Shown here piece by piece: positions 5,006 through 26,068 of a DNA stretch of 32,177 bases. Positions within the stretch are counted from its first letter, which is position 1. Each line of letters opens with the position of its first letter. Origin of the DNA: Deltaproteobacteria bacterium. GTDB lineage: Bacteria > Desulfobacterota > GWC2-55-46 > DRQE01. The translations under genes and the position numbers were made by a program. The stretch is taken from assembly GCA_024278765.1 (NCBI GenBank), contig JAJRSM010000017.1:1-32177 (forward strand), given 5' to 3'. Under the pieces are notes generated by a model, which was not told where the DNA came from, searched no databases, and worked only from the letters and a program-made list of their open reading frames with translations.

Positions 5006-6013
5006 CTACTTACCGGCAAGCCCCAGATTATGCGAGAGTGCCTCGGTAAACTCATCCGGCGTGAGTGTTGCCGTACCTAGTTTCTCAACGACCACACCGG
5101 CTGCGACATTTGCCAGTGCCGCACTCTCTCTGTAGCTAGCCCCTACGGCAAGTGCCAGTGCTAAAACAGCTGCGACGGTATCGCCGGCGCCACTGACGTC
5201 AAAGACCTCTTTTGCCGTAGTCGGTATATGCGTCTCACCGGTCTCTTCAAAGAGACTCATCCCGTGCTCTCCCCGAGTAATAAGAAGTGCGCCACAGCCA
5301 AGCGTCTCTGTAATCACATCCGCCGCTACCCGCAGGCTCGCCTCGTCTCTGATCTTCACACCTGCCGCAAGCCCCGCCTCACTACAATTTGGCGTTATCA
5401 GGTCCACACCAGTATAATAATCAAAGTGCTCTACCTTAGGATCAACTATAAGCGGCTTACCCGAACGCGAAGCTAAGTCTCTGGTAATATTTACCAGAGA
5501 CTCGGTCACCAACCCCTTTGCATAATCAGATATAACTACCACATCGGCATAACGCACCATCTTCTTTATATAATCATATACCTCTGATATTATCTTTGAA
5601 CTGGGCTCCTCATTGCTCTCCCTGTCAAACCTAACAACCTGCTGGTGATGTGCTATCACGCGCGTCTTTATCGTTGTTGGCCTACCTGCATCAACTATTA
5701 CTCCATCGGTCTTAATGCCGCTGCCAGCAAGCTCCTTAATAAGTCTTTTCCCGTCATCGTCCTTACCAATAATACCGGTTACGTAACACTTACCGCCAAG
5801 GCTGGTTATATTATGTACGACATTCGCGCTGCCGCCAAGCATCCGGGTCTCGCTGCTTACATCGACGACAGGGACCGGGGCCTCGGGAGAGACACGCGTA
5901 ACACTACCCCAGATAAAATGATCCATAATAAGATCGCCGACGACCAAGACCTTCGCCCCCTTAAAACTGCCAACCAGCGTACGTGCCTTCTTAAGGCTTA
6001 GCATCTTCTTCAT
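5006..6013 (-). CDS. hldE1: D-glycero-beta-D-manno-heptose-7-phosphate kinase (HldE kinase domain, RfaE1)
   Basis: A PfkB-family kinase of about 335 residues that phosphorylates heptose-7-phosphate to the 1,7-bisphosphate, the substrate of GmhB, which is encoded in this locus. Evidence is the N-terminal VLVVGDLIMDHFIWG, VSPEAPVPVV, the Gly-rich GGSANVVHNITSLG, and the C-terminal anion-hole motif DVSGAGDT. Fused HldE proteins continue with a nucleotidyltransferase domain; here the protein ends after the kinase domain, so a separate RfaE2 must be elsewhere. I prefer ATG 6013 (GGTGG five bases upstream) to the track's TTG at 6031. It lies between yicC and the epimerase gene and is separated from the epimerase by a 129-bp gap. 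Confidence 0.9.
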   Translation of the reverse strand: MKKMLSLKKARTLVGSFKGAKVLVVGDLIMDHFIWGSVTRVSPEAPVPVVDVSSETRMLGGSANVVHNITSLGGKCYVTGIIGKDDDGKRLIKELAGSGIKTDGVIVDAGRPTTIKTRVIAHHQQVVRFDRESNEEPSSKIISEVYDYIKKMVRYADVVVISDYAKGLVTESLVNITRDLASRSGKPLIVDPKVEHFDYYTGVDLITPNCSEAGLAAGVKIRDEASLRVAADVITETLGCGALLITRGEHGMSLFEETGETHIPTTAKEVFDVSGAGDTVAAVLALALAVGASYRESAALANVAAGVVVEKLGTATLTPDEFTEALSHNLGLAGK

Positions 6014-6142
6014 AAAAGCCACCTTTAACAAGATATATATTCACGAAATAAATAAGATTTCATTTGTAAGGACTAAGCCTTCCAAGTGATAAAGATATAG
6101 CACATTAATGCCTCAGGTTCAAATCCGAGAAAAGAAACCAAA

Positions 6143-7129: not shown

Positions 7130-7260
7130 ATCAACTCCAAAATACTTCTCTTTTGATAAACTTAAAGCCGGCTGCGCCGGTAACCAAAAATCTATAACTA
7201 TCATTCTGCAATTCAGGGCAGTTCATATCAACTCCAAAATACTTTTATATTGGTAAACTT
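7067..7260. repeat. 97-bp tandem duplication of the epimerase start region
   Basis: Two copies of about 97 bp (7067-7163 and 7164-7260) carry the epimerase ribosome site, start codon and first 21 codons. They differ at scattered positions and most at their AT-rich ends. The upstream copy encodes a 31-codon mini-ORF (ATG 7226) that repeats the real N-terminus (NDSYRFLVTGAAGF), then runs into unrelated residues and stops in TGA one base before the true ATG 7129. Distances between matching start codons (7226-7129) and AAAGCCGG motifs (7164-7067) are both 97. Confidence 0.92.
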
Positions 7261-8092
7261 ATTTCTGTGCCATCGCCCTTCGCTTTAAGAGCTTGACCGT
7301 ATGGCGCGAGATCCGCTCGGCCTTGGCCATTATCTTTCTAATAAGTTTTTTATCAGCTGCGCTGAATTTGTCTTTACCAAGATATGCATAACCAAAGCGG
7401 ACAAGGTCAGAGGCCGAGAAGTTATCAATCGAGATTGCGGAGAAGACAAACTGTGCCAGGTCTTTTACTATCCATCTCTCAAGTGCCGGGCTTCTACGCT
7501 GAACCCTCTGGAGATCGACAAGAAAGAGCTCGCCTGTAGTGGGACGAATAAAGATATGGCCGAGATAGAAGTCCTGATGATTAAAACCCATCTCGTGAAA
7601 ACGTGCTGCAAGTCTTGCTACGCGCACTATGATATCGCGTTTTTCTAGAATCGCGTCGTCACCGAGCCCTGCAAGGGACGGTATGTGATCTTCTACCCTG
7701 ACACTGTCGTAGATCTCTTCTGTAACGGTCAAAGATCCTTTATTGGTCTCGCCATAAGCTACCGGGATCATCGTCTGAAAACCGGCATCAGCTAGCTCAA
7801 TCATACGCTCCCATTCATTGCGACCATCTTCCGGTCTTTTCTTCCTTAGGAAACGCCCGAGGCCGCGCCCTGCTCTATCGGCCTCTGGATCGAAGTGACG
7901 CTTAAGGAAAAAAGCCTTCATACCGCTGCTTGACTCAAGCTCAAAGCGTACTACAGAGCGGGCCTTTTTCTCTTTAAAGACGGTTCCTTCTTTACGCTGC
8001 ATCAAGGCCTCAAAACTATCAAGACGAGCCTTCTCCAGGACCTCCAAAAAAGCCTCGTTTATCAGAAGTCCTCCGCGCTCTATAAAATCCAT
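7259..8092 (-). CDS. Lipopolysaccharide kinase-like protein (Kdo/WaaP family)
   Basis: A 277-residue protein kinase-fold enzyme resembling WaaP/RfaP and KdkA, which phosphorylate inner-core sugars of LPS in the cytoplasm. Visible elements are an ATP-binding Lys in AFFLKRHF, the catalytic loop FNHQDFYLGHIF, and the metal-binding LVDLQRVQR in place of DFG, as in the WaaP group. The start is ATG 8092, 2 bp after the stop of the double kinase upstream, so the two are surely co-transcribed. The stop codon falls in the end of the 97-bp duplication that precedes the epimerase. Likely target: a core heptose; family membership alone cannot fix heptose versus Kdo. Confidence 0.75.
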   Translation of the reverse strand: MDFIERGGLLINEAFLEVLEKARLDSFEALMQRKEGTVFKEKKARSVVRFELESSSGMKAFFLKRHFDPEADRAGRGLGRFLRKKRPEDGRNEWERMIELADAGFQTMIPVAYGETNKGSLTVTEEIYDSVRVEDHIPSLAGLGDDAILEKRDIIVRVARLAARFHEMGFNHQDFYLGHIFIRPTTGELFLVDLQRVQRRSPALERWIVKDLAQFVFSAISIDNFSASDLVRFGYAYLGKDKFSAADKKLIRKIMAKAERISRHTVKLLKRRAMAQK

Positions 8093-8094
8093 TA

Positions 8095-9651
8095 CTACGC
8101 TCCAAGCTCCTTGTAAATATCAATCAGGTCCTTCGTAGGTCTTATCCCCAGCAGATAACTCTTATATCCAGCGAGAAAGCCGTCTTTTTCTTTCTGACTC
8201 AGGCCGAACTTATCTATCTCGGTCATAAAACGCTCCAGATCTTTCTTTATCTCCGAGCTCGTCAATTCAGTGCTAATGGAACTGCCATCAATATCAAGAA
8301 AGAAAATATCCGGATTAAAATTGTCAGCTGTCTTCTTTATTAGAATATTATTCCACTTAAGGTCTCCGTGATACCAACCTAGAATATGCATACGACGCAA
8401 CTCTCGTCCAATATGAAAGATTAGATCACTGAAACAACCAGTAGGTTTACAGTCTTCATCAAGGGCTAGGTCACTGAGCCTCGGAGCATCGTCGATAAAC
8501 TCGCTTATTATATAGCTTCTGCCAAGTACTCTGTTTTTTTTACGCTCCTCGATAAATGCCAGAGGCTCTGGCATCGGCAGGTCGCGAAGCTCCGCGCCGT
8601 AACTCATCTGCCACACCCTGCTGGCCCTTGAGGTACGGAAGATATTCTTTATAGTATGTACCGAGCCCTTTACGTTATATCTCTTAAGAAATACCTTTCT
8701 TCCGTCTTGAAGCTCTATCATCCCTGCCTTTACCGTGCGTCCGTCTTTAAAGATAACAGCTCGCTCACTATCTAGAAAGCCATCCGGGTCTTTTACTATC
8801 GGATCAAGCGCACCAGCCTCGTACCACACCTTCTTCATGTGGACCTCAAAGAAACCCTCGGTATACTCGGCAAAGAGTTTACCTCCGGTCATAGATCTTT
8901 GCGCCTTCTTCTTCCATATCTTTGCGGCTCTGGTAAGAGTTGCCAGTTCGACCTTCTCTACAACTGCCCGCAATGCTGCTTTATCTAAAAACAGGCCTTC
9001 TGCATATGCCTTTAAAAAATAATATTTCAGAGAAGGCTCCAGCCCTGCCAGATAGTTAAGGTTAATTAGCTCCAGATTCGCAATGCGATCGACTAGACTT
9101 ACCTTACCAATAAAATCGACCTCTCCCAGATCCAGCAGGCAAAAACCAACCTCACCGGCATCACTCGTAGCGTCTTCAACTACAAGCATATTGCCCATAT
9201 GTGGATCCTTGTGCATAGCCCCTTTATCATGTAAAAGACGAATAAAGGCTGCAAAATACCCGATCACTCTTCTCTTCTCTTCTCTGGTTAATTCTTTAAA
9301 AGTAGTAAAGAAGTACTCTTTGAGCACCTGGCTATGCGCGCCCTCTTCGGTTATAAGGACAGCACCGCCGCCACCATAACCACGCGCGGCAAGCACCGGG
9401 ACAGGAACTCCAAGCTTTGCGAGCCTATCTATCGAATCGGCCTCGCGCCGCTTTGCAGGCAGCCCGGATGAGCTAAAGAGCTTCACATAAAAGACACGTC
9501 CTTGCCTCTCTACCCGCCAGACCTCACGTTTTTTACCAAGCCTTCTAACACAGAGCCCATCACGCCCAAGGGCACTCAATGCCTGCATAGGATCAAAGCC
9601 CGGCAACACGTAATTCCATTTTATTTGATCTGTCTTGACCGACCGTATCAT
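8095..9651 (-). CDS. Tandem two-domain LPS/Kdo-kinase-like protein
   Basis: A 518-residue protein holding two protein-kinase-fold domains of the RIO/Kdo/WaaP type in one chain. Domain 1: ATP Lys in FYVKLF (about 57), catalytic loop HKDPHMGN (147-154), LLDLGEVDF (172-180). Domain 2: VFLKRYN (about 320-326), HGDLKWNN (428-435), FFLDIDGSS (450-458). Both keep the key His-x-Asp and Asn/Asp residues, so neither is an obvious dead domain. The start is ATG 9651 with only a weak AGG upstream. The next gene (8092) is a third kinase domain 2 bp away, pointing to consecutive modification steps on one LPS core. Fusion of two ancestral kinase genes is inference. Confidence 0.75.
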   Translation of the reverse strand: MIRSVKTDQIKWNYVLPGFDPMQALSALGRDGLCVRRLGKKREVWRVERQGRVFYVKLFSSSGLPAKRREADSIDRLAKLGVPVPVLAARGYGGGGAVLITEEGAHSQVLKEYFFTTFKELTREEKRRVIGYFAAFIRLLHDKGAMHKDPHMGNMLVVEDATSDAGEVGFCLLDLGEVDFIGKVSLVDRIANLELINLNYLAGLEPSLKYYFLKAYAEGLFLDKAALRAVVEKVELATLTRAAKIWKKKAQRSMTGGKLFAEYTEGFFEVHMKKVWYEAGALDPIVKDPDGFLDSERAVIFKDGRTVKAGMIELQDGRKVFLKRYNVKGSVHTIKNIFRTSRASRVWQMSYGAELRDLPMPEPLAFIEERKKNRVLGRSYIISEFIDDAPRLSDLALDEDCKPTGCFSDLIFHIGRELRRMHILGWYHGDLKWNNILIKKTADNFNPDIFFLDIDGSSISTELTSSEIKKDLERFMTEIDKFGLSQKEKDGFLAGYKSYLLGIRPTKDLIDIYKELGA

Positions 9652-9757: not shown

Positions 9758-10750
9758 TTATTTCTTACCACGACTCCTCCCTCGAAGCCCCCAGAGCGCA
9801 GGGCACCCGGCCAGATGCCAGGACAAGAGATGCAGATTCAGAAAAAGCCTGCCACGCGCCTTCTTTGAGGTAAAGAAACTGAAAACATTCACAACAAGTG
9901 CCCCTGCGACATTAAAGACAAGTTTGACGATCAACCCAAAGAGCAGCATAATATAATCCATCTTTGAGGCATGTCGCTTAAAATAACCATAGCGAGAGAG
10001 CCAGTACTCAACACGAGCTCGCGTATTAACTTCCTTTGCCGTTGCCCCTTGCAGGTGATAGATATTAATATCAGGATGATGCATTACCTTCCACCCATAA
10101 AAACGCATTCGCCTACACCAATCGGTCTCCTCAAAGAAAAAGAAGAAACCATCATCAAAAAGACCTGCGTCATGCGTTGCCTTATTGCGAACCACCATAC
10201 AGGCACCGATGACCGAATCGACCTCTATCGGCGAGCTAATGTCATGTTCTTTTCCGGGAAACTGCTCGGGAAAGAACCTGCGAAGCAGGCTCTTATTAAA
10301 TAACTCTGTCAAAAGAGTCGGATAATTTGCAATTGAATTCTGTTTAGAGCCGTCTTTATTGAGGAGTTGCGGACCGAGGATGCCGACATCTGGGTTATCG
10401 TCCATAAAGGCCACGAGCTTATCGAGCTGGCCTGCGGGTACGATTGTATCGCTATTTAAGAGTATTGCATATCTGCCAGCTCCTCTTACCAAGGCCTGAT
10501 TATTGGCCCTTGCAAAACCAACATTACCCTTGTTTTCTATACGCTTTACCTTTGGAAACTTCTTTTTAAGGGCCGCCACACTCCCGTCGCTCGATCCATT
10601 ATCAACGACCCAGACCTCTACATCCAGAGCAGAACCACCGCCGCCGTCCCCATCTTTGGGTTTAGTATCAAGGGAAGAAAACACAGAACCCACGCACGCA
10701 AGCAACAGGTCTTTCGTGTTATAATTTACTATAATAACTGAGATATCCAT
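9758..10750 (-). CDS. Family 2 glycosyltransferase (WbbL/rhamnosyltransferase-like)
   Basis: A 330-residue GT-A-fold enzyme acting at the cytoplasmic face of the membrane. It shows SVIIVNYNTKDLL, the nucleotide-binding WVVDNGSSDGS, NKGNVGFARANNQ, LLNSDTIV (DxD-like), and DGFFFFFEETDWCRR, all typical of WbbL-type GT2 enzymes that add deoxyhexoses to lipid-linked or core sugars. The C-terminus has a hydrophobic stretch (about 262-292) and a basic tail. A Gly/Asp-rich insert (KDGDGGGGSALD) lies at about 32-43. The ATG overlaps the stop of the upstream GT2 gene by one base (TAATG). Donor sugar not determinable by eye. Confidence 0.82.
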   Translation of the reverse strand: MDISVIIVNYNTKDLLLACVGSVFSSLDTKPKDGDGGGGSALDVEVWVVDNGSSDGSVAALKKKFPKVKRIENKGNVGFARANNQALVRGAGRYAILLNSDTIVPAGQLDKLVAFMDDNPDVGILGPQLLNKDGSKQNSIANYPTLLTELFNKSLLRRFFPEQFPGKEHDISSPIEVDSVIGACMVVRNKATHDAGLFDDGFFFFFEETDWCRRMRFYGWKVMHHPDINIYHLQGATAKEVNTRARVEYWLSRYGYFKRHASKMDYIMLLFGLIVKLVFNVAGALVVNVFSFFTSKKARGRLFLNLHLLSWHLAGCPALWGLRGRSRGKK

Positions 10751-11643
10751 TATTTAACAAAACTCAAGATGTAACGCCTGAGATATTTTCCTCCGCGCAC
10801 AAGCGAGGGGCAAAGCTCGCCGGCCTTTTTATAATATAAGCGATATTCCTTGGTGCGACCGCTGTGATAACAGGCTGTTGCGAGCTGAAGATATTCCTTT
10901 GCATAAAGCTTGTCCTTCTGCTTTAGTAATTTATCAGGCAGATTGTCGGTAGAAAAAAGCTCGTCAATGGCCTTTACCCCCTGCTCGATTATCTTGTCCG
11001 TATTGTCCTTTGCGCTCTGCTTGCTACGTCTAACCAGACAGACGCGCGTCCTGCAGAAGAAAAACTTAAGCCTTGCCGTCAGCCGCAATAGCAACTCATA
11101 GTCCTCATGATTAGTAAGGACTTCCTTGTACATACCACAGCTTAACATCAACTCCCTTTTAATCATATAAGAGTTGTTATTAATAAGCCTACGCTCCATA
11201 TATTCCGTAAGGATATCACCCTCTGGATAATCTAACGTCTCATCGGGCTCTAGCAGGCTTTCGTCCTGGCGTTGTCTGACGCTTAGTCCGTAGACTGCAT
11301 CTGCTTCTTTATTAATCCTAAAACATTCAAGCATAGCACTTATAGCACCTGGCAGCATAAGGTCATCAGAGTCGAGCATACAGAGGTACTTGCCTGTCGC
11401 CTCCGTAATACCCCTGTTCCTTGCAATACTTTTTTCCTGATTATGTTGGTATACAAAACGAATACTGCCGGCAAATCTATCAAGTATGGCCTTTCCGGTG
11501 CCATCGGTCGAGCCGTCGTCAACTACTATAACCTCAACGCCAGCAAGATCTTGGGCGAGGACACTCTCGATTGCCTCGCAGGTCTCTTCCCTGCGATTAT
11601 AGGTCGGTATAACTACGCTTACGAGCGTACTGAGTTTACTCAT
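10750..11643 (-). CDS. Family 2 glycosyltransferase
   Basis: A 297-residue GT2 enzyme with the classic N-terminus SVVIPTYNRREETCEAIESV, the nucleotide-binding VIVVDDGSTDGT and the acidic motif MLDSDDLMLPG. After about residue 200 the sequence is less conserved and probably forms the acceptor part. The start is ATG 11643, 20 bp from the GT4 gene, and its stop overlaps the next GT2 start. Consecutive GT4-GT2-GT2 genes in an LPS locus suggest stepwise growth of the outer core or a short glycan. Substrate unknown. Confidence 0.85.
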   Translation of the reverse strand: MSKLSTLVSVVIPTYNRREETCEAIESVLAQDLAGVEVIVVDDGSTDGTGKAILDRFAGSIRFVYQHNQEKSIARNRGITEATGKYLCMLDSDDLMLPGAISAMLECFRINKEADAVYGLSVRQRQDESLLEPDETLDYPEGDILTEYMERRLINNNSYMIKRELMLSCGMYKEVLTNHEDYELLLRLTARLKFFFCRTRVCLVRRSKQSAKDNTDKIIEQGVKAIDELFSTDNLPDKLLKQKDKLYAKEYLQLATACYHSGRTKEYRLYYKKAGELCPSLVRGGKYLRRYILSFVK

Positions 11644-11662
11644 ATACCTAAGACGCGCCCCT

Positions 11663-12796
11663 TTAAGTAGCCTTCTCCTTCATCACCAACTCGCAGAGCT
11701 CTATTATCTGCGAGGTACAGTTCTCTATCGTAAGCCCCTTTACTGCAAGAGCCGCTGCCCTTCCCATACGTCTGCGCTCTCCGCTCCCCTTTAAACGCAT
11801 AAAAAGCTCGGCGAGCTTATCATCATCATTCCAGTAGTCCAGAATAAAACCATTCCTACCTTCTGTTATAAACTCAGAGGCACCGTTCTCGGTAGTCGTT
11901 ATAACAGGAAGGCCTGAGGCCATGGCCTCAAGGCACGCATTGCTACACGGGTCGTAACGCGTTGGCAAGACAAAAAAATCAGCCGCGCCATAGTATTCTT
12001 CTACCGTCTGACTGGCACCTGCAAAGAAGAGATTACCCCCTCCCATCCCCATCCTTTTTACCGCCGCGTTCTGCAAGGCAGTCGAGCCCCTGCCAACGAC
12101 CAGCACCTTAAGATAAGGTGCTTTTGCCATCGCCCTGATAATCGTACCAAAGCCCTTTCTCTTCCAGTTATTTGAGACAAAGAGCGCGACAACATCCTGC
12201 TGCCCGATGCCAAGCCTCTCCCTGACATCCTTACGATGTTTTTTAAGGTCAGGATTAAAGACGCTATGGTCTATGCCATTATATATAACCCGGATCTTAT
12301 CACTTGGCACGCCAAAGAAACTCTCCATATGGCCCTTTACAAGCTTTGAGTTGGTTATAACGTAGCGGCAATTGCCCGGGGCCATGATTTTTTTCTCTAG
12401 CCTTAACATAGCCGGATGAACCGGGGCGAAGATAAACTTTAAAAGCCTCTGGTAAAAACTCGGATAACGCATGCGCATCCAGTGCGCGTATACCCCGCCT
12501 CCTGCGCGGTAGATATCAAGCGGATAGATCTGAGTAAGTCCAAAAACAATATCCTGATCCCCTGCATCCAGCAACTGACCGACCTTCTTGCTGAACCCCA
12601 GAATCTTAAGGGCAGAAGAAAAACCAGAGACCCGTACCTGCGTAACCGCAATGCCATCAACGCTCGGATCAGCTCGGGCCGAGTACAAGGCAACGCCGTG
12701 CCCCGCGGCCTTTAGAGATTTCGCCAGATTAACCCCGACCCTCTCTGCCCCTCCCCATGATGTGGAAAAGCCTCTACCTACAAGTGCTATCTTCAT
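11663..12796 (-). CDS. Family 4 glycosyltransferase, WaaG-like LPS core transferase
   Basis: A GT-B-fold retaining transferase of 377 residues. Evidence: the N-terminal Gly-rich acceptor motif GRGFSTSWGGAERVGVNLA, the linker VIYNGIDHSVFNP, the nucleotide part FVSNNWKRKGFGTIIRA, and the E-x7-E type motif in SNACLEAMASGLPVITT. These match WaaG-like LPS core glucosyltransferases, but I would not fix the sugar. The track uses a TTG start (12805); ATG 12796 gives the normal MKIALVG start. It follows the LpxL-like gene by 28 bp and precedes two GT2 genes, probably in one transcript. Confidence 0.83.
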   Translation of the reverse strand: MKIALVGRGFSTSWGGAERVGVNLAKSLKAAGHGVALYSARADPSVDGIAVTQVRVSGFSSALKILGFSKKVGQLLDAGDQDIVFGLTQIYPLDIYRAGGGVYAHWMRMRYPSFYQRLLKFIFAPVHPAMLRLEKKIMAPGNCRYVITNSKLVKGHMESFFGVPSDKIRVIYNGIDHSVFNPDLKKHRKDVRERLGIGQQDVVALFVSNNWKRKGFGTIIRAMAKAPYLKVLVVGRGSTALQNAAVKRMGMGGGNLFFAGASQTVEEYYGAADFFVLPTRYDPCSNACLEAMASGLPVITTTENGASEFITEGRNGFILDYWNDDDKLAELFMRLKGSGERRRMGRAAALAVKGLTIENCTSQIIELCELVMKEKAT

Positions 12797-12824
12797 AGTT
12801 ACCAATTACTTCCAGCTGAATTCA

Positions 12825-13733
12825 TTAAGACAACCCCTTGCCCTTGCTAAGACCGGCCTTCTTTCTACGCTCCCACCTTGAATGCAGCCAAAACCACTGA
12901 TCAGGATAACGTCTGATATAGTCCTCTATTGCTCGCGTAAAACGCTGCGTATTCTCTTTCATATCTTCAATCTTATCACCGGTACTAGCGAGCCTTAACG
13001 GCTCCATGCACTCAACCTTATGATAAGGGCCCTTTAGTCTTCTGATAAATACAGGGATAACCAGCGAATCAGTCTTCCGGGCAATCGCAGCAAGTCCTTT
13101 GCTGGTACTGGCCGGAGTACCAAAAAAATCCACCATTACGCCGTCTTTTGTCGAAGACCGCTGGTCAAGCAATATTCCCAGCACTCCGTTATCCTTTAAA
13201 AGCCCCAGCATTCCACGCAGGGCATTTGTCTTCTCTATTACGTGCCCTCCAAAAGCACTCCTTACCCTCTCAGTATACGCGTTCAGATAAGGGTTATCCA
13301 GCGGTCTTGCGACAACACCCATTGTAAAGCCCCGCAGGCTTAAGGCAGCATTAAGTAGCTCCCAATTATCATAATGCGCTGTTAGAGCGACCGTTCCCTT
13401 ACCCTTTTTAGCCGCTTGTTCAAAGTGCTCTAACCCCTCAAAGCTTACGTACTTGTCTATATATGCCCTGTCCACCTTGCCAAGCCTTACGAATTCGACC
13501 AGCATCATCCCCAGAGAGCGGAACATACCGGCGGCTATACCACGCGCCTCGCCCTCAGACAGGCTATCGCCAAAAGCCCGCCTAATGTTGAATAATGCAA
13601 GTCTTCGCCTGCTGCCGCCAAGGCGGTAGCAGGCAAACCCCAAGCCTCTGCCAAAACCAAGTGCTACCCTTAACGGCAGCAAGCTCGTAATGGAGGCAAA
13701 GGCCTTAAATAAAATATAGGCAAGGATATTCAC
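12825..13733 (-). CDS. Lipid A biosynthesis acyltransferase (LpxL/HtrB-like)
   Basis: A 302-residue inner-membrane acyltransferase expected to add a secondary fatty acid to Kdo2-lipid A. The catalytic HX4E motif is in TAHYDNWELL (His 120, Glu 125). Downstream, LGILLDQRSSTKDGVMVDFFG and the C-terminal RYPDQWFWLHSRWERR are hallmarks of LpxL/LpxM proteins. The N-terminal hydrophobic stretch acts as an anchor. The start is GTG 13733 with GGGGG upstream. Near residues 34-42 the DNA forms a 12-bp hairpin (13608-13633). Proteins of this family also appear as generic lysophospholipid acyltransferases, so the chain specificity is open. Confidence 0.87.
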   Translation of the reverse strand: MNILAYILFKAFASITSLLPLRVALGFGRGLGFACYRLGGSRRRLALFNIRRAFGDSLSEGEARGIAAGMFRSLGMMLVEFVRLGKVDRAYIDKYVSFEGLEHFEQAAKKGKGTVALTAHYDNWELLNAALSLRGFTMGVVARPLDNPYLNAYTERVRSAFGGHVIEKTNALRGMLGLLKDNGVLGILLDQRSSTKDGVMVDFFGTPASTSKGLAAIARKTDSLVIPVFIRRLKGPYHKVECMEPLRLASTGDKIEDMKENTQRFTRAIEDYIRRYPDQWFWLHSRWERRKKAGLSKGKGLS

Positions 13734-13967: not shown

Positions 13968-14954
13968 TTAAGTTTCTTTCATAACATCAGGCATAGTCTT
14001 GGGCATCCGGGCCTTTCGACCACCTGCCCTAATGTACTCAACCGCTCCAGGCAGACTTATCACTACAGTCGTCACAAACCAGAGCAGGCTAAGCCCTAAG
14101 GCCGCTTCACTCGAAACTCCGACACCGGCAAAAAGAAAGATAAATACCCCTTCCCTTATACCAAGCCCAGCGAGCGAGAGCGGGATCATCGCAGCAGAGG
14201 TCGCCATCGGAACAAAAAGAAAATAATACCCTATCGGAGCATTAATTCCAAGCCCCCTTCCTAATATAAAGTAACTTAAGGCTACCCCACCTTGGACCAC
14301 CAGTGAGATCAGAAATATCCTGATAAGCAGCCCTTTTCCTTTGTATGCCATAAAAACTTTATAAAAACCGTCTATCTTATCGTTTAATTTGTAGAAATGT
14401 ATCCTTGCAGATATCGCAATAAGCCAACCATGCAGGAACTCGACCCAAACAAAAAGACTTGCCATTACAAACGCAGCTATAAGAAAAATAAAGACTAGTA
14501 AAAGCCACGGCCCTCCGATGCTAAGCACAACCTTGTAGCCTATAAGAAGGGCCATGGCCTCTATAAAGATCATCGCCGCAAAACCAGAGTACCTATCGAC
14601 AAATATAGATGCAAAAGATGCCCCGGCCTTACCACTCCTCTTGAAAAGATAATACCCTTTAACAAAGTCTCCACCAACAGCTGTAGGTAGAAAACTATTA
14701 AAAAACATACCAATAAAGTATATAGATAATAGGCTACGGTAAGATATTACTATATCTTTTTTAACAACCCTAGACCACCGATAAGTAGATATTAATTGAA
14801 CAATCAGAAGCGTTAACCCTGCACCCGCAAAGTTAAGCAGCGGCATAGCAGCAAACATATCCAGAAAGAGCTTGAAATCGAGGTTCCGGAATAGAAAATA
14901 GAGGATTACAGCACTTACTATGACCTTTACTATAATTAAACGAAGTTTCTTCAT
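13968..14954 (-). CDS. Flippase-like membrane protein (AglD / LPG_synthase_TM family)
   Basis: A polytopic membrane protein of 328 residues with about eight hydrophobic helices. It matches the lysylphosphatidylglycerol synthase transmembrane / AglD family: FFNSFLPTAVGGDFVKGYYL (about 90-110), VDRYSGFAAM, and the C-terminal IPLSLAGLGIREGVF are characteristic. Members have been proposed to move lipid-linked sugars; the direct role here is unknown. The ATG overlaps the upstream GT2 stop by 4 bp (ATGA), so the polyprenyl-phosphate sugar synthase and this protein are translationally coupled and likely partners. Confidence 0.85.
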   Translation of the reverse strand: MKKLRLIIVKVIVSAVILYFLFRNLDFKLFLDMFAAMPLLNFAGAGLTLLIVQLISTYRWSRVVKKDIVISYRSLLSIYFIGMFFNSFLPTAVGGDFVKGYYLFKRSGKAGASFASIFVDRYSGFAAMIFIEAMALLIGYKVVLSIGGPWLLLVFIFLIAAFVMASLFVWVEFLHGWLIAISARIHFYKLNDKIDGFYKVFMAYKGKGLLIRIFLISLVVQGGVALSYFILGRGLGINAPIGYYFLFVPMATSAAMIPLSLAGLGIREGVFIFLFAGVGVSSEAALGLSLLWFVTTVVISLPGAVEYIRAGGRKARMPKTMPDVMKET

Positions 14955-15952
14955 TTGTCTCGGAGTTTTTTATCCGCCTCGGTTATATTTGTTAAGACCT
15001 CACCAATATCCTGCCTAAAGACCTTCTTCACTACAAATATCGGCTTATCCTGAGATTCATGGTAGATGCGTGCTAGCATCTCGCCAAGCAACCCCATTAC
15101 AATAGCCTGAACGCCTAGGATCATAAGCAGAACCCCGAGCAGCAGGAGCGGCCTATTGCCGATCTGGACACCATGGATTATCTTCTCGTAGCTCAGATAA
15201 AGAGAGATCATAAAACCTACAAACCCCATCAAGAGCCCTGGAGGGCCAAAGGCATGGATAGGACGCGTAGAGAAACTCTGAAGAAATCTAACTGTTATAA
15301 GGTCAAGGACGACTCGTACTGTTCTGGATATGCCGTACTTTGAAGTACCAAAACGCCTAGGGTGGTGCTTTGTAGGGACCTCTACTATTTCGGCACCAAC
15401 CCAGCTGGCGATAGCCGGTATAAAGCGATGCATCTCGCCGTAGAGCTTTATATTCTCTACGACCTCCCTACGGTAAGCCTTAAGCGTACAACCGTAATCA
15501 TGCAGGCTAACGCCGGTCACCTTTGAGATAATCCAGTTGGCTATTAAGGATGGCAGTTTTCTTGACAAGAAGGGGTCTTTCCTATTCTTTCTCCAACCGC
15601 TGACGATATCCTTACCCTTTATCATCTCTATCATCATAGGGATATCGGTCGGGTCATTCTGGAGATCGGCATCCATAGTTATTATGACGTCTCCCTTTGA
15701 GTACTCAAAGCCCGCAGCCATGGCTGCGGTCTGACCAAAGTTGCGCCTAAAAGATACAACAACGATATGAGAATCCCGCTCGGCAAGCTCCTCCAAATAC
15801 TTCAAAGAGCCGTCCCTGCTGCCATCATCGACCAAGACGATCTCATAGGGGTTGTCTAGGCCCTCCATTACATCCTTTATAGCCTCATAAAGGCGAGGCA
15901 GGCTCTCGACCTCGTTATAGACCGGGATAACTATTGATATGGATTCAGGCAA
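14951..15952 (-). CDS. Polyprenyl-phosphate glycosyltransferase (GT2, ArnC/GtrB/DPM1-like) with two C-terminal helices
   Basis: A 333-residue membrane-bound GT2. The N-terminal catalytic part has SIVIPVYNEVESLPRL, VLVDDGSRDGS, SFRRNFGQTAAMAAGFEYS and the DxD motif TMDADLQNDP. The segment SLHDYGCTLKAYRREV is typical of ArnC/GtrB. Two helices near residues 228-250 and 265-290 anchor it, as in GtrB. It transfers a sugar to undecaprenyl phosphate at the inner face of the membrane. The start is TTG 15952 with GGAAGG spaced five bases. It overlaps the AglD-like gene by 4 bp, which suggests a lipid-linked sugar made and then moved across the membrane. The 114-bp gap upstream has no clear promoter. 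Confidence 0.9.
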   Translation of the reverse strand: MPESISIVIPVYNEVESLPRLYEAIKDVMEGLDNPYEIVLVDDGSRDGSLKYLEELAERDSHIVVVSFRRNFGQTAAMAAGFEYSKGDVIITMDADLQNDPTDIPMMIEMIKGKDIVSGWRKNRKDPFLSRKLPSLIANWIISKVTGVSLHDYGCTLKAYRREVVENIKLYGEMHRFIPAIASWVGAEIVEVPTKHHPRRFGTSKYGISRTVRVVLDLITVRFLQSFSTRPIHAFGPPGLLMGFVGFMISLYLSYEKIIHGVQIGNRPLLLLGVLLMILGVQAIVMGLLGEMLARIYHESQDKPIFVVKKVFRQDIGEVLTNITEADKKLRDK

Positions 15953-16066: not shown

Positions 16067-16642
16067 TCAAGAATTCTTAGCAGACTTATCTTCTTCAAGG
16101 TCATTTAGTATCCAATCTACGCCGTCCACTAGATTTTGCGCAACATAATCAGGCTGAAGCTCTAACTTAGCCAGTTCATCCTTACCGTATCCGGTAAGGA
16201 CCATAATGGCCTTTGCCCCGGCCCCGCGCGCCGCGCCCATATCAGAGACCTTGTCTCCTATAAAGTAGGCCGGCAGGCCGGCAAGATCGTGCTCACGTGC
16301 TGCCTGCTCGATAAGACCCGTCTCAGGCTTTCTGCACCTACAACCCTCGTCCGGCCTATGAGGGCAATAATATATTCCGTCCAACGCGCCGCCCTGGTCT
16401 TTTATAATCTCTGAGGCCCTCGCATTTACGGCAAAGAGCTCGCGCTCGGTAAAATAACCCCTGCCAATCGCCGACTGATTGCTAATAACAATCGCCTTTA
16501 TACCAGCATCATTCAAGGCCTTTATAGCCGCTGCCGCACCGTCAAGTAAAACAACCTTATCGGGGGTACTCAGATATCCCGGGTCATGGTTTATCGTCCC
16601 GTCACGGTCCAGATAGACAACGGCCCTTACTTCTCTTGCCAT
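16067..16642 (-). CDS. gmhB: D-glycero-beta-D-manno-heptose-1,7-bisphosphate 7-phosphatase
   Basis: A HAD-family phosphatase of 191 residues that removes the 7-phosphate in ADP-heptose synthesis. The DxDGT motif (YLDRDGTINHDPGY) is near residue 12, motif II SNQSAIGRGYF follows, and the zinc-binding loop CPHRPDEGCRCRKPETG is at about 93-109; the metal loop separates GmhB from other HisB-like phosphatases. The GGAGG-preceded ATG 16642 overlaps the waaF stop (TGATG); GTG 16645 is an alternative. Works directly after the HldE1 kinase encoded at 5006-6013. Confidence 0.93.
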   Translation of the reverse strand: MAREVRAVVYLDRDGTINHDPGYLSTPDKVVLLDGAAAAIKALNDAGIKAIVISNQSAIGRGYFTERELFAVNARASEIIKDQGGALDGIYYCPHRPDEGCRCRKPETGLIEQAAREHDLAGLPAYFIGDKVSDMGAARGAGAKAIMVLTGYGKDELAKLELQPDYVAQNLVDGVDWILNDLEEDKSAKNS

Positions 16643-17826
16643 CACACCTCCGGACCGGTCTCGGAATCGGCTTTAGAATTGGAATCGGCATCAGAACCGG
16701 GATCGGCATCAAAGCCGGGATCGGCCTTAAAGCTAGGATTAGCCTTAAAGCTAAAATTAGCCCCGGACTTTGCTAGAAGCTCAACAGAGGCGGCGTATAG
16801 CTCCTGCGCCGAGATGGTCTTCATACAGTTATAGTGCCCATAAGGACACTCTCTCTTAAAACAAGGACTGCACTCAATCTTCTTATATAAGACTTTTACA
16901 CAACGGCCAAGAGGGCCGGTCAGGGCAGTTGATGTAGATAGGAATATCGCTACCGTTGGTACACCAAGGGCAGCTACCACATGCATAGGACCAGAGTCAT
17001 TGGTAATAAAGAGCTGCGTCTTACCTGCTATAGCTATAAATTCCCTAAGGCTAGTCTTTCCGGCAAAGTTGACATGCTTGATACCGGCACTCGTCAGACT
17101 CATCGAGAGTGCCGTGCTGACCTCTATATCATCGCCGCCGCCGAATATTACAGGAGTTAGATTACACTCTCTGGATAACCTCTCCAGTACCTCGTGATAA
17201 CGCTCTATCGGCCATCTTTTGGCAGGACCAAAGCTCGCTCCCGGGGCGACCCCTACCATCGCAGCATCAGGGCCCAGGCCATACTCAGCCATCACCACAA
17301 GGGCTCGCTCCGCGTCATTAGCTCCTATACTAACCTGCGGCAATTCCAGTTCCTCTAAAGATAGATCCAGCCCCAGCTCTTTGATAATATTCAGGTAATA
17401 AAAGACCTGGTGTTTTTTTGAGATATGCTCGTCAAAATCTATTGGTTGAGTCAAGAGAGGAGTACGCAAGTCGCGCGCATAACCCACGCGCTTTGGTATA
17501 CCTGCCATAAACGCAATCAGGGCCGCCTCAAAGGCATTCTGAAACAAGACCGCCATCTGAAACTTACGAGGCCTGAGCTGATTTACAAGCCGGAACTTCC
17601 CCGAGAAACCAGAATGAGGTCCGCTCGGGTCGTACTCGATAACATCCTTTACGATCTTTTCTTTACCCAGATATAGAGGCAGGGTACGCGCCTTTGCAAG
17701 GACGGTTATCTCGGCCTCTGGATAAAGCCTTTTCAGGGCATGAAGCCCGGGCATGGATATCACCGCGTCGCCGATCCAGTTAGGGACACGAACCAAGATT
17801 CTCTTTATTATATCTTTATCGGGCAT
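16642..17826 (-). CDS. waaF: ADP-heptose--LPS heptosyltransferase II with a repetitive C-terminal tail
   Basis: A GT9 enzyme of about 394 residues that adds the second heptose of the inner core from ADP-heptose. It has ILVRVPNWIGDAVISMPGLH at the N-terminus, VGVAPGASFGPAKRWPIERY and FITNDSGPMHVVAALGVP in the C-terminal half, and the Cys-rich end CSPCFKRECPYGHYNC. After the normal family end it carries an unusual tail of about 37 residues made of six near-copies of a hexapeptide of the form A[ND]xx[FS][KD]. I chose ATG 17826, because the track's 37-residue extension has no family match; GAGG lies close upstream. A low-certainty promoter may lie between 17830 and 17900. Confidence 0.92.
   Translation of the reverse strand: MPDKDIIKRILVRVPNWIGDAVISMPGLHALKRLYPEAEITVLAKARTLPLYLGKEKIVKDVIEYDPSGPHSGFSGKFRLVNQLRPRKFQMAVLFQNAFEAALIAFMAGIPKRVGYARDLRTPLLTQPIDFDEHISKKHQVFYYLNIIKELGLDLSLEELELPQVSIGANDAERALVVMAEYGLGPDAAMVGVAPGASFGPAKRWPIERYHEVLERLSRECNLTPVIFGGGDDIEVSTALSMSLTSAGIKHVNFAGKTSLREFIAIAGKTQLFITNDSGPMHVVAALGVPTVAIFLSTSTALTGPLGRCVKVLYKKIECSPCFKRECPYGHYNCMKTISAQELYAASVELLAKSGANFSFKANPSFKADPGFDADPGSDADSNSKADSETGPEV
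16666..16773 (-). repeat. 18-bp tandem repeat in the 3' end of waaF
   Basis: The motif ATCGGC (later ATTAGC) recurs at 16666, 16684, 16702, 16720, 16738 and 16756, an exact 18-bp spacing over six copies. The copies diverge toward the inside of the gene. Because 18 is a multiple of three, the reading frame is kept and each copy adds six residues (for example ANPSFK, ADPGFD, ADPGSD). Confidence 0.9.
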
Positions 17827-17952
17827 AACCTCTGGAAAACACCTCTTCTTAGTAGATCTTGATCTAAATTTATCACAAAGATCAATAAAAAAGCAACCAA
17901 ATGAAAGAGTAATCAAATCAGCACCTTGCCGGAACACTATCCGTTAAATATG

Positions 17953-17982
17953 AAAAACCACGTCACTAAAAGAACAACGTGG
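17953..17982 (-). terminator. Probable terminator after the radical SAM gene
   Basis: On the minus strand a stem CCACGT / ACGTGG with a 13-base loop is followed by five T residues. It lies 36 bp downstream of the radical SAM/SPASM stop at 18018 and upstream of waaF. It would separate the heptosyltransferase/SPASM transcript from waaF-gmhB. The stem is short, so efficiency is uncertain. Confidence 0.5.
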
Positions 17983-18017
17983 CACTGATACCTACTTTGA
18001 AATAAATCCCTATAAGA

Positions 18018-18929
18018 CTACCTTCTCCCCTCACACGACAGGCAGATCTTTGGTTTCGAGAAGTCTCCCTTCAGGTGTCTGCGTCTTATACGCCTGAGTT
18101 TCTCATTATGGAAGATATCATAGACGCTATCTTTTTTGACGTTACCGAGTATCACCTTGCCGTCATAGTCCATGCAGCAGATAGAGACCTCGCCGTTCCA
18201 GAGTACGGTAAAGGTCTGCCAGACACGCAGGCACGGCAGCCCCCTTTTGTCTCCTCGCTCGCCGCCTTGCAGGCTTCCGCCCCAGTTATGGTAAGAACTG
18301 ATATCTATTGAATCGACTCGCCCCTTCCACCTTTTCATAAAGCCCTCACGCTCGTGGCTATTTTTATCGGTCTCGACAAAGACCAGCCCTATCTCCGGGG
18401 TCTTAGAGTTAAGCTCTTTCTTAACATCAATAAGGGCCTCTATATTCTCAACGACCTTATCAAAATCAAGGCCCTTCCTTATAACGTCAAAGGTCTCTTT
18501 ACTGTTGCCGTCGATACTGACCTTTATACGCGTCAAACCTGAACCTACCAGCTCTACTGCCTTCGCCCTATCCAGCAGCGATATATTAGAGAAGAGCCGC
18601 GTGCTTATTCCCTTCCCTGTTGCGTAGCGAATCTTATCAAAGATACCTTTATCAATGAAGGGCTCGCCAAAATTATGCAGATGAATGGAAGAGACCTTAT
18701 AAGAGGCGCACTCGTCGACGACCTTTTTAAAGAGTGCGAAGTCCATCACGCCCTTTTTTCTGGTCATGACTTGGCGCGTACAGGTGATGCAATCGGCATT
18801 ACAGTTGGCTGTGCTCTCAAGCCTTACTGTGCGAGGGAATTTAAAAAATCCAAGACTGTCAAGTAAGGGTAGCGCCAGACGCGCCCCTGCCAGTTGAGTT
18901 CGGTATAAAAGACTGCCCGGACGCGTCAC
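18018..18929 (-). CDS. Radical SAM/SPASM-domain protein of the LPS locus
   Basis: A radical SAM enzyme with an auxiliary Fe-S binding C-terminus. The core motif CNADCITC (CxxxCxxC) is near residue 43 of the GTG-started form. SIHLHNFGEPF is the usual SAM-binding Gly-Glu motif. The C-terminal cysteines (GLPCLRVWQTF, ISICCMDYDG, ICLSCEGRR) form a SPASM-type cluster site. The substrate is unknown; a sugar or peptide modification is conceivable. I prefer GTG 18929 over the track's ATG 18989, because GTGA overlaps the waaC stop by 4 bp and GGAGA lies eight bases upstream. It is a paralogue of the protein at 19946-20785. Confidence 0.8.
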   Translation of the reverse strand: MTRPGSLLYRTQLAGARLALPLLDSLGFFKFPRTVRLESTANCNADCITCTRQVMTRKKGVMDFALFKKVVDECASYKVSSIHLHNFGEPFIDKGIFDKIRYATGKGISTRLFSNISLLDRAKAVELVGSGLTRIKVSIDGNSKETFDVIRKGLDFDKVVENIEALIDVKKELNSKTPEIGLVFVETDKNSHEREGFMKRWKGRVDSIDISSYHNWGGSLQGGERGDKRGLPCLRVWQTFTVLWNGEVSICCMDYDGKVILGNVKKDSVYDIFHNEKLRRIRRRHLKGDFSKPKICLSCEGRR

Positions 18930-19933
18930 GAACCCAGTCTCCGAACGGCTGCTTTGTAGACCATATCGGGTGTGACCCGGTGCATGCACCTCATATCCTT
19001 ACACTCACGCTTGCGGCACGGTGAACAGCTGGCCTTCATGCTTACAACCTCTGCATTGTCTCCGTAAGGCCCGGTATAGGCCGGATCGGTCGGACCAAAG
19101 ACAGCGACGACTGCCGTCCCCTGAGAGGCCGCTATATGGGTAGCCCCGGAGTCGCAGCCAATATAAATATCAGCCGCTCTAAAGACCGCTGCCAACTGCG
19201 CTATATCGGTCTTACCAGCAAGATTTAAAGCCTTATGTTTCATCTTTTTTATTATGCCCTTTATATACTGCAAGTCACCGGGAGTACCTGTAAAGACGAC
19301 CTTAGCATTGTTTTGTTCTATAAAAATATCAGCGAGTGTCGCAAAAGAAGCCGCACCCCACATCTTGGAATCCCACCTCGATGTCGGACTCAGCACGAGC
19401 AGAGGCCCGCTACCAACGGCTTCTTTTAAAAGCCCTTCAGCCTGCCCAGTCGCCGCCTGAGAGACGGGCAACTCGGTACTTAGCTTAACGGGCAACTCTA
19501 TACCCAAAATCCCTGCTACAACCGATGCGTTCTCAACGACTGCATGGACACCGTCGGATCTGCTCGCGCCTATTTTTTCATTATAAAAGATCGCACTACC
19601 TTCGCGCGTATATGGGAAAGAGACACGCCGCTTCGCACCCGAAAAATAACCTATAACAGCGCTCTTTAAAAGCCCTTGCAGGTCAACAACCATATCAATA
19701 CGTCTGCTGCGCAGCACCTTTATGACCCGAAGCGTTGGCCCAAGACCACGCCCCTGTGCCACAATAACCTCATCGACAAAAGCTACGCCTTCGATAAGCG
19801 GCGCGTAAGCCTGATTTATTAACCAATGAATACGAGCCTCTGGCAATCCCTCGCGCAAGAGCTTTACCGCTGGCACGGCATTTATTATATCGCCAAGCGA
19901 GCTATATTTTACAACCAGTATATTTAAGGCCAT
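18926..19933 (-). CDS. waaC: GT9 heptosyltransferase, WaaC-like (heptosyltransferase I)
   Basis: A 335-residue GT9 enzyme that should transfer the first heptose from ADP-heptose to Kdo on lipid A. The N-terminal ILVVKYSSLGDIINAVPAVK is typical of WaaC, as is the acceptor-side MVVDLQGLLKSAVIGYFSGA. The C-terminal nucleotide-binding part has LSPTSRWDSKMWG and IGCDSGATHIAASQGT. Cysteines near the end (CSPCRKRECKDMRC) parallel those of waaF. It is flanked on both sides by radical SAM/SPASM genes (12-bp gap and 4-bp overlap). WaaC versus other GT9 (WaaQ-like) specificity is judged from motif style, so the symbol is moderately sure. Confidence 0.78.
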   Translation of the reverse strand: MALNILVVKYSSLGDIINAVPAVKLLREGLPEARIHWLINQAYAPLIEGVAFVDEVIVAQGRGLGPTLRVIKVLRSRRIDMVVDLQGLLKSAVIGYFSGAKRRVSFPYTREGSAIFYNEKIGASRSDGVHAVVENASVVAGILGIELPVKLSTELPVSQAATGQAEGLLKEAVGSGPLLVLSPTSRWDSKMWGAASFATLADIFIEQNNAKVVFTGTPGDLQYIKGIIKKMKHKALNLAGKTDIAQLAAVFRAADIYIGCDSGATHIAASQGTAVVAVFGPTDPAYTGPYGDNAEVVSMKASCSPCRKRECKDMRCMHRVTPDMVYKAAVRRLGS

Positions 19934-19945
19934 CGACCCGTGCCT

Positions 19946-20785
19946 CTAGCGGAGCTTATCGCAGTTATTACAGATGGGCAGCTTCTCGTACTCACCACGC
20001 TCGTGAATCCCTCTAAACCTGGTATACTTCTCACCCTTCCAGACCTCTGCGACCGTCTCTTTTTTAAGATCACCAAGGATCATCTTCCCGTCAAAGTCAT
20101 AACAACACGGTACGACAAGGCCGTCCCACAAGACCTGCATCACAGGGTCTATTACCATCGAGCACTTACGCTCGCTCTTTTCCTTCTCAGCCTTATTAAA
20201 GCCCCTGCCATAGCCGTAATTATGCATACGCGCAAAAGATATATGCGCCTTAAAACCCCATTGAAAGGCAAAGCGCACGAAGTCTCTGAGCCTACCTATA
20301 TACTTAACATCAATTTTGGTCACTGGCTTGCCGTTTTTTTTAATCTCTTTTCTTATCCGCAAAAGTCGCTCGACATTGGCCCTGACCTCTTCAAATTTAA
20401 GACCGTTGTGGATCTGCTCGTAACTTTCTTTTTCTACGCCGTAAAAACTGATCTTAAGCTTATCTAGGCCCGAGCTCAGCAGCTCGCGGCAGACCTTATC
20501 GGTTAAAAGCGAAGCATTCGTGACCATAAAGGTATAGGGCATGCCCGCGGCCTTTGCGGCCTTTATCTTCTTGATTATGGTCTTATCGAGAAATGGCTCG
20601 CCATAGCCCTGAAGGTGCAGCTCTTTTGTGCCTCCTTTAACCAACTGCGCAACTATCTTACTGAAGAAACCCAGCCCCATAGTACCCTTGGGTCTGGTAA
20701 GCATCTCTCTAGGACACATCGTGCAGACGGCGTTACAGAAGTTCGTATTCTCTATTCTGACCTGATGGGGAAACTCGACTAACAT
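19946..20785 (-). CDS. Radical SAM/SPASM-domain protein, first gene of the heptosyltransferase operon
   Basis: A 279-residue radical SAM protein with the core CNAVCTMCPRE (CxxxCxxC) near residue 16, ELHLQGYGEPFLDK as the SAM-binding Gly-Glu motif, and C-terminal Cys residues in VVPCCYDFDG and PICNNCDKLR for an auxiliary cluster. The track start (20860) would lie upstream of a reasonable promoter (20814-20842); ATG 20785 gives a normal family N-terminus (MLVEFPHQVRIENTNFCN), although no ribosome site is clear. It precedes the heptosyltransferase by 12 bp. Substrate unknown. Confidence 0.78.
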   Translation of the reverse strand: MLVEFPHQVRIENTNFCNAVCTMCPREMLTRPKGTMGLGFFSKIVAQLVKGGTKELHLQGYGEPFLDKTIIKKIKAAKAAGMPYTFMVTNASLLTDKVCRELLSSGLDKLKISFYGVEKESYEQIHNGLKFEEVRANVERLLRIRKEIKKNGKPVTKIDVKYIGRLRDFVRFAFQWGFKAHISFARMHNYGYGRGFNKAEKEKSERKCSMVIDPVMQVLWDGLVVPCCYDFDGKMILGDLKKETVAEVWKGEKYTRFRGIHERGEYEKLPICNNCDKLR

Positions 20786-25261: not shown

Positions 25262-26068
25262 CTAACCCTCGCAGATCAGCCCTCGCAGATCTGGATGATA
25301 TGGGCCATCAATAAGAGAATAGCGAAGCTCCTCTGAACCATGCAGCCCCATCCTTATAATCTTTATACCGGCATTATCTAAAACCGCCACTGCCTTCTTT
25401 AGGAGCTCGACCATAACCGGCAGCTCCCATGCCTTGTAACGCCCTGCAACATGCAAGACCGCAAGCTCGGTATCCTTAATAACCAGAGTAGGATAGATCC
25501 TTACAAAATCAGGGGCCAGTGCAACCGTACTGTGTATCGTCTGCATAAAACGCTCAGCACTATCACCCGGAAGCCCGGGCATAAGCTGGATACCAAGCGC
25601 AATGCCTGCCTCTTTTATGAGGCCCGCAGCAAGCTCTACAGCACTACGATCATGCCCTCTACCCGACAACTTAAGGACCTCGTCATCGAGCGACTGCACC
25701 CCAAGCTCAACCGTCTCTACCCTGAAACGCAGCAGACGCCTGATCACCTCCACACCGATATAATCAGGGCGCGTTGAGATGCGCAGGGCATCAATCCTAC
25801 CATCGTCTACAAAGGCCTTTGCGACAGCCAGATATTCTTCTTGAATATCTACGGGAAGCCCTGTAAAACTACCCCCATAAAAAGCAACCTCACGACGCCC
25901 CGTCCCCTTCCAAGAAGAAAGATACTCAGTGACCTTACCAGAGACCTCTTGGACGGTCGGCATATCGCTCTGCCCGGTAATGTCTCGCTGATTACAAAAG
26001 ACGCATTTATGCGGACACCCGCCGTAAGGAATAAATACAGGAATAATAAGTTGCTTTTTTTTTGCCAT
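25262..26068 (-). CDS. Elp3-like radical SAM protein, C-terminally short
   Basis: A radical SAM enzyme of 268 residues with CPHKCVFCNQRDITG (CxxxCxxC) near residue 18, VAFYGGSFTGLP, ISTRPDYI, VELGVQSLDDEVL and LMPGLPGDS. These match the Elp3/MiaB-like coproporphyrinogen-oxidase-type subgroup often annotated only as 'radical SAM protein'. Relatives I remember run to roughly 330-350 residues and continue after the GPYHP motif; here the protein stops 13 residues after GPYHP. The end lies in a 12-bp direct repeat spaced 14 bp apart. ATG 26068 has GAGG six bases upstream and lies 8 bp after rnc. Function unknown. Confidence 0.82.
   Translation of the reverse strand: MAKKKQLIIPVFIPYGGCPHKCVFCNQRDITGQSDMPTVQEVSGKVTEYLSSWKGTGRREVAFYGGSFTGLPVDIQEEYLAVAKAFVDDGRIDALRISTRPDYIGVEVIRRLLRFRVETVELGVQSLDDEVLKLSGRGHDRSAVELAAGLIKEAGIALGIQLMPGLPGDSAERFMQTIHSTVALAPDFVRIYPTLVIKDTELAVLHVAGRYKAWELPVMVELLKKAVAVLDNAGIKIIRMGLHGSEELRYSLIDGPYHPDLRGLICEG

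Follow-up and report, generated by a model that had tools for sequence, protein, structure and literature searches.

Among the carbohydrates of LPS, the heptose-Kdo inner core is generally regarded as the most constant, and we know of no radical step in the textbook pathway for its synthesis. What, then, might two radical SAM proteins be doing when their genes enclose that of a predicted heptosyltransferase? The question is raised by the window analyzed here, a stretch of 32,177 nucleotides that makes up a single contig in a metagenome-assembled genome (2.2 Mb) from an uncultured member of the Deltaproteobacteria. The most likely answer is that the three genes make up a transferable module for the inner core, with BtrN-like enzymes that modify the sugar added or accepted by the glycosyltransferase.

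Layout and gene order of the block

All three genes lie on the minus strand. RS2, the first gene of the block (19946..20785; 279 aa), runs from an ATG at 20785 to a stop at 19946 and is followed after 12 bp by GT9a (18926..19933; ATG at 19933), which encodes a GT9 enzyme of the heptosyltransferase family with a WaaC match. RS1 (18018..18929; 303 aa, with an N-terminal helix at residues 7–25) completes the block, its GTG start overlapping the GT9a stop by 4 bp as GTGA (18926–18929). The first-pass annotation had described two radical SAM genes enclosing a WaaC-like gene with this same gap and overlap, and its coordinates hold, as do the PF04055, PF13186, and PF01075 matches. It had also spoken of one operon, a description that is safe for RS2-GT9a-RS1 only: the HepII gene is set apart by an 80-bp gap and a terminator-like hairpin at the RS1/HepII junction (17957..17983, minus strand; an 11-bp stem and then a T run, −9.2 kcal/mol), the hairpin being a consensus match only. 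The joints within the block are also tight in relatives, unlike the RS1/HepII junction, which measures 70–283 bp in six of them. Judged by gene spacing, RS2, GT9a, and RS1 thus appear to be a unit of their own. In one relative (L059), the RS1/HepII joint carries a stronger terminator-like hairpin than that of the window.

The block is present in seven of the nine genomes of the family, representing six genera and with differing upstream genes, so the arrangement is conserved far beyond chance. A foreign base composition was considered and rejected: the GC content of the block (47–51%) is similar to that of its neighbors, with slightly higher GC3 in RS1 and RS2 only (57.6 and 58.9%), and there is accordingly no sign of recent arrival.

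The genes downstream place the block at the head of an LPS core and lipid A region. First come GT9b, a WaaF-type HepII (16642..17937, minus strand; TIGR02195, 237.8 bits against a cut-off of 134.6), and a GmhB-like heptose-1,7-bisphosphate phosphatase (16067..16645, minus strand; NF006506, E 1e-49, slightly below cut-off). An ArnC-like GT2 gene (14951..15952, minus strand) then opens a series of LPS genes for a flippase-like protein (13968–14954), LpxL (12825–13733), GT4/GT2 enzymes (9758–12805), two adjacent Kdo/WaaP-type kinases (7259–9651), an epimerase, and the HldE kinase domain, a heptose-7-phosphate kinase (5006..6031, minus strand; TIGR02198, 377 bits against a cut-off of 345). The match of the larger Kdo/WaaP-type kinase (518 aa) is confined to its C-terminal part. 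A WaaA gene is present in the genome, away from the block. The idea that a radical epimerase might explain a loss of HldD, the ADP-heptose 6-epimerase, proved uninformative, as the curated HldD cut-off is reached in none of the 39 genomes of the order, whether the pair is present or absent; D,D-heptose, or a different epimerase, may be in use in this order. Elsewhere in the window (25262–26068), a short Elp3-like radical SAM protein of 268 aa, without an acetyltransferase domain, is encoded beside RNase III and MtaB.

Family and cluster ligands of RS1 and RS2

RS1 and RS2 both match PF04055 (Radical_SAM) and PF13186 (SPASM) above the Pfam cut-offs, and the radical SAM motif CX3CX2C (C43/C47/C50 in RS1) is invariant in all 94 relatives. 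The SPASM motif of seven cysteines and two auxiliary clusters reads CX9-15GX4C-gap-CX2CX5CX3C-gap-C (PMC6231123), a pattern absent from both proteins. What they contain is four cysteines matching BtrN C169, C187, C232, and C235; in RS1 these are C233, C251, C296, and C299, with a spacing of 18/45/3 that is exactly BtrN's, and both C-termini lie only 3–4 residues beyond the CX2C, leaving ligands for the first auxiliary cluster only. Because the C-terminal cysteines would supply a single predicted cluster, we class RS1 and RS2 as twitch proteins; the radical SAM/SPASM label given at first pass keeps its PF13186 match and its auxiliary cysteines but not the full SPASM domain. All 28 GT9-adjacent members retain the three radical SAM cysteines and the four auxiliary ones of BtrN.

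BtrN is the 2-deoxy-scyllo-inosamine dehydrogenase of the butirosin pathway (PDB 4M7S/4M7T). It was the best match in a PDB sequence search for both RS1 (E 1.3e-14) and RS2 (E 3.8e-16), it led a sequence-profile search of solved structures (3.6e-31, the next match being 1.2e-11), and, with bound AdoMet and substrate, it headed the fold search with AlphaFold models (pLDDT 88.8 for RS1 and 79.9 for RS2) at E 3.2e-14 and 2.7e-13, respectively. DesII and BlsE were among the next-best solved matches, and SuiB also ranked high for RS2. RS1 and RS2 share with BtrN the CX3CX2C motif, one four-cysteine auxiliary [4Fe-4S] site at identical spacing, the overall fold, and the length, but identity in the fold alignments is only 18–20%, and their genes lie in an LPS core context whereas BtrN belongs to an aminoglycoside cluster. 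Nor are they BtrN proper: R152 and E189 of BtrN, which we take to be substrate contacts, are W/Y and M/Y/L in the RS1/RS2 family, so their substrate presumably differs from BtrN's. Among NCBIfam radical SAM families, the tungsten-cofactor maturase TIGR04317 was rejected for RS1 and RS2 at 118.5 and 111.5 bits against a cut-off of 380, and all other matches were likewise below cut-off.

The closest solved enzymes take cyclitol or sugar substrates, BtrN acting on a cyclitol, DesII on a nucleotide sugar (TDP-sugar), and BlsE on a glycosyl-nucleoside, and by this analogy the action of RS1 and RS2 on a sugar is supported indirectly. The first-pass proposal of radical chemistry on heptose, Kdo, or the lipid is to that extent partly upheld: heptose and Kdo are candidate substrates, and a lipid may also be one.

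In a tree of the 94 relatives, RS1-type and RS2-type proteins separate, with moderate support only for RS1-type monophyly. Uniting RS1 and RS2 in a single clade, as a local duplication would require, is rejected (AU p 0.00013), which indicates ancient paralogues that were brought together. The two are thus paralogous, as had been proposed, but not local duplicates. Adjacency to GT9, treated as a label on this tree, requires 5 changes compared with 24 when labels are shuffled, a contrast inflated by near-copies.

GT9a and the heptosyltransferase I position

GT9a belongs to family GT9, with a PF01075 score of 168.4 bits, above the Pfam cut-off, and the catalytic D/K/D residues. It matches E. coli WaaC along its whole length and conserves the equivalents of D13, K192, D261, and H266. 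It departs from WaaC at several donor-side positions, scores below the heptosyltransferase I equivalog TIGR02193 (149.7 against a cut-off of 185.3 bits) and exactly at the cut-off of TIGR02195 (134.6 bits), belongs to a lineage apart from the HepI of the order, and is flanked by radical enzymes on both sides. GT9a and HepII, both in the window, are the only GT9 genes of the genome. Because GT9a is the sole GT9 besides HepII in a genome that has WaaA, we place it at the HepI position and infer that it performs this step.

Where the pair is absent, most relatives in the order, G002 of the same family among them, have the gene order HepII-GmhB-HepI, often followed by an ArnC-like GT2; a second such member of the family (G003) retains GmhB and HepI, which lie on a short contig. 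Where the pair is present, RS2-GT9a-RS1 lies upstream of HepII, and our GT9 search found neither the inherited HepI nor a third GT9. By the GT9 tree, HepII appears to be vertically inherited within the order. GT9a forms a clade of its own (100/100), and the RS1-linked GT9 of Auribacterota is its sister group (98/88). The candidate reading that GT9a is the family's inherited HepI, which would group it with that of G002 and G003, is rejected (AU p 0.005). A sister position to the HepI of the whole order is not rejected (p 0.207), and uniting all RS1-linked GT9s in a single clade gives a tree that fits no worse than the best one. In this family the module has taken the place of the inherited HepI gene; most simply, an RS-linked GT9a would have assumed the HepI step upon acquisition of the module. 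Its presence in place of that gene was absent from the first-pass annotation and is new here.

Gene linkage, reactions, and alternative readings

Tight coupling to inner-core synthesis had been proposed from the gene order of the window alone, and our neighborhood survey bears this out. The refuting outcome set beforehand, an absence of any GT9 link in other genomes, did not occur: 20 of the 22 RS1-type loci have a GT9 gene as immediate neighbor, and these 20 are spread over Desulfobacterota, Planctomycetota, and Auribacterota. They comprise all seven loci of the family, all 11 of the Pirellula group, one in Auribacterota, and one in a further planctomycete (convergent). By comparison, none of 57 more distant relatives, many of them from polysaccharide clusters, has a GT9 gene within 300 bp. 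In the Pirellula MAGs, no other LPS genes were found beside the RS1-GT9 pair. Two RS1-type loci have no GT9, and at one (L150, 7632–9629, in genome G252) the RS1-type gene lies beside an ELM1 gene (PF06258); the search with GT9a found no GT9 in that genome.

Outside the family, RS2-type genes have ArnT-like or WaaA-like neighbors or lie downstream of KdsB/KdsA. An RS2-type gene follows a WaaA-like Kdo transferase gene by 17 bp in a Syntrophaceae MAG (L085, 8484–10852), and another follows KdsB and KdsA at a distance of a few genes in a Saganbacteria MAG (L101, 5182–10840). In two Auribacterota loci (L148, 9305–10177; L146, 1735–2589), ArnT-like GT83 lipid A glycosyltransferase genes directly follow the RS2-type gene, a second lipid A-linked pairing of these enzymes.

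We consider it fairly probable that RS2-GT9a-RS1 is an inner-core LPS module in which GT9a adds the first core heptose and RS1 and RS2 alter the sugar that it accepts or has just added. Each radical enzyme would use its N-terminal [4Fe-4S] cluster to cleave SAM and would then take a hydrogen from a carbon of the sugar; the auxiliary cluster would help to end the reaction in one of two ways. In one, the invariant cysteine beside this cluster would donate a hydrogen, giving epimerization; in the other, an electron would be lost to the cluster and an alcohol oxidized to a ketone. Both endings have precedents. BtrN oxidizes an alcohol to a ketone with its auxiliary cluster as the likely electron acceptor (PMC9012708), whereas the hydrogen donors of radical SAM epimerases are enzyme cysteines, such as C223 of EpeE (PMC5682303) and C249 of NeoN (PMC10991966). 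NeoN and HygY, twitch aminoglycoside epimerases, act on the assembled glycoside with an enzyme cysteine as donor (PMC10991966), and according to the title of a paper cited there, one cysteine change turns HygY from an epimerase into a dehydrogenase. By likeness to these descriptions only, C252 of RS1 and C228 of RS2 would be the donors.

C252 adjoins the auxiliary ligand C251 in RS1, and a cysteine at this position (F188 of BtrN, next to ligand C187) is present in all 28 GT9-adjacent members; H214-N215 is invariant as well. The invariant cysteine leads us, as a weakly held first guess, to favor epimerization slightly over dehydrogenation; the argument is weak because many SPASM/twitch proteins share the CC motif, including 38 of the 66 other relatives. 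We would put epimerization somewhat short of an even chance and ketone formation at rather less. The presence of two enzymes could mean that two sugar positions are altered, or that one enzyme acts on the acceptor and the other on the product. A fuller version, in which a transferable module of two or three genes swaps the first heptosyltransferase and inner-core heptose or Kdo is epimerized or oxidized after transfer, we put forward only tentatively.

The best-placed alternative, which we nonetheless regard as unlikely, is that RS1 and RS2 act on Kdo or the lipid A sugars of the acceptor rather than on heptose, GT9a having co-evolved to use the altered acceptor. The RS2-type genes beside WaaA-like, KdsA/KdsB, and ArnT-like genes would fit this reading, as would the N-terminal helix of RS1, which in the model could sit at the membrane, but RS1-type genes are found specifically beside GT9 in four lineages. 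Less probable still is DesII-like action on a soluble donor, ADP-heptose or another nucleotide sugar, such that GT9a would transfer an altered sugar in place of normal heptose. DesII and BlsE are indeed close structural matches, and GT9a both differs from WaaC on the donor side and falls below the HepI cut-off; GmhB and the HldE kinase domain, however, are still in the cluster, and RS2-type genes in other phyla accompany Kdo or ArnT-type rather than heptose genes, which makes a shared donor sugar unlikely.

There is only a slim chance that the radical SAM genes serve O-antigen or another glycan and stand beside GT9 without functional significance. Clusters for O-antigen and other polysaccharides often contain relatives, yet the adjacency to GT9, absent from the 57 distant relatives, recurs among differing flanking genes in three phyla and, in Pirellula, leaves the RS1-GT9 pair as the sole shared unit. 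Finally, many SPASM/twitch proteins are peptide maturases, and metalloenzyme maturases are among the NCBIfam near-matches (TIGR04317, 118 bits against 380), but it is very improbable that RS1 and RS2 mature GT9a or a small peptide and lie in an LPS cluster by chance, as the 12-bp gap and 4-bp overlap leave no room for a peptide gene, neither protein has an N-terminal peptide-recognition domain, and the closest structures are small-molecule enzymes.

Our preferred reading, an inner-core module with sugar-altering enzymes, suggests an unrecognized chemical change in a nearly constant part of the bacterial surface. If true, the inner core would be open to chemical re-editing, and BtrN-type enzymes, known from antibiotic pathways, would gain a role in basic envelope building; RS2-GT9a-RS1 offers a small, defined, and testable gene set. 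A search of the open-access literature for radical SAM proteins together with heptosyltransferases or the LPS core returned nothing relevant and no account of the RS-GT9 module, of its occurrence in three phyla, or of the replacement of HepI. What is already known is BtrN-type chemistry and the occurrence of radical SAM proteins, mostly uncharacterized, in glycan clusters. One such case is the Brachyspira plasmid pBHWA1, with uncharacterized radical SAM/SPASM proteins in a surface-glycan cluster (PMC4267127); family and polysaccharide context are shared with RS1 and RS2, but identity is only about 25–32%, and no GT9 is among the annotated neighbors shown. In B. hyodysenteriae, this plasmid cluster (L243) contains five consecutive radical SAM/SPASM genes. 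A single Anammoxibacter genome (G426; L100) encodes eleven relatives of RS1 and RS2, several of them in a row.
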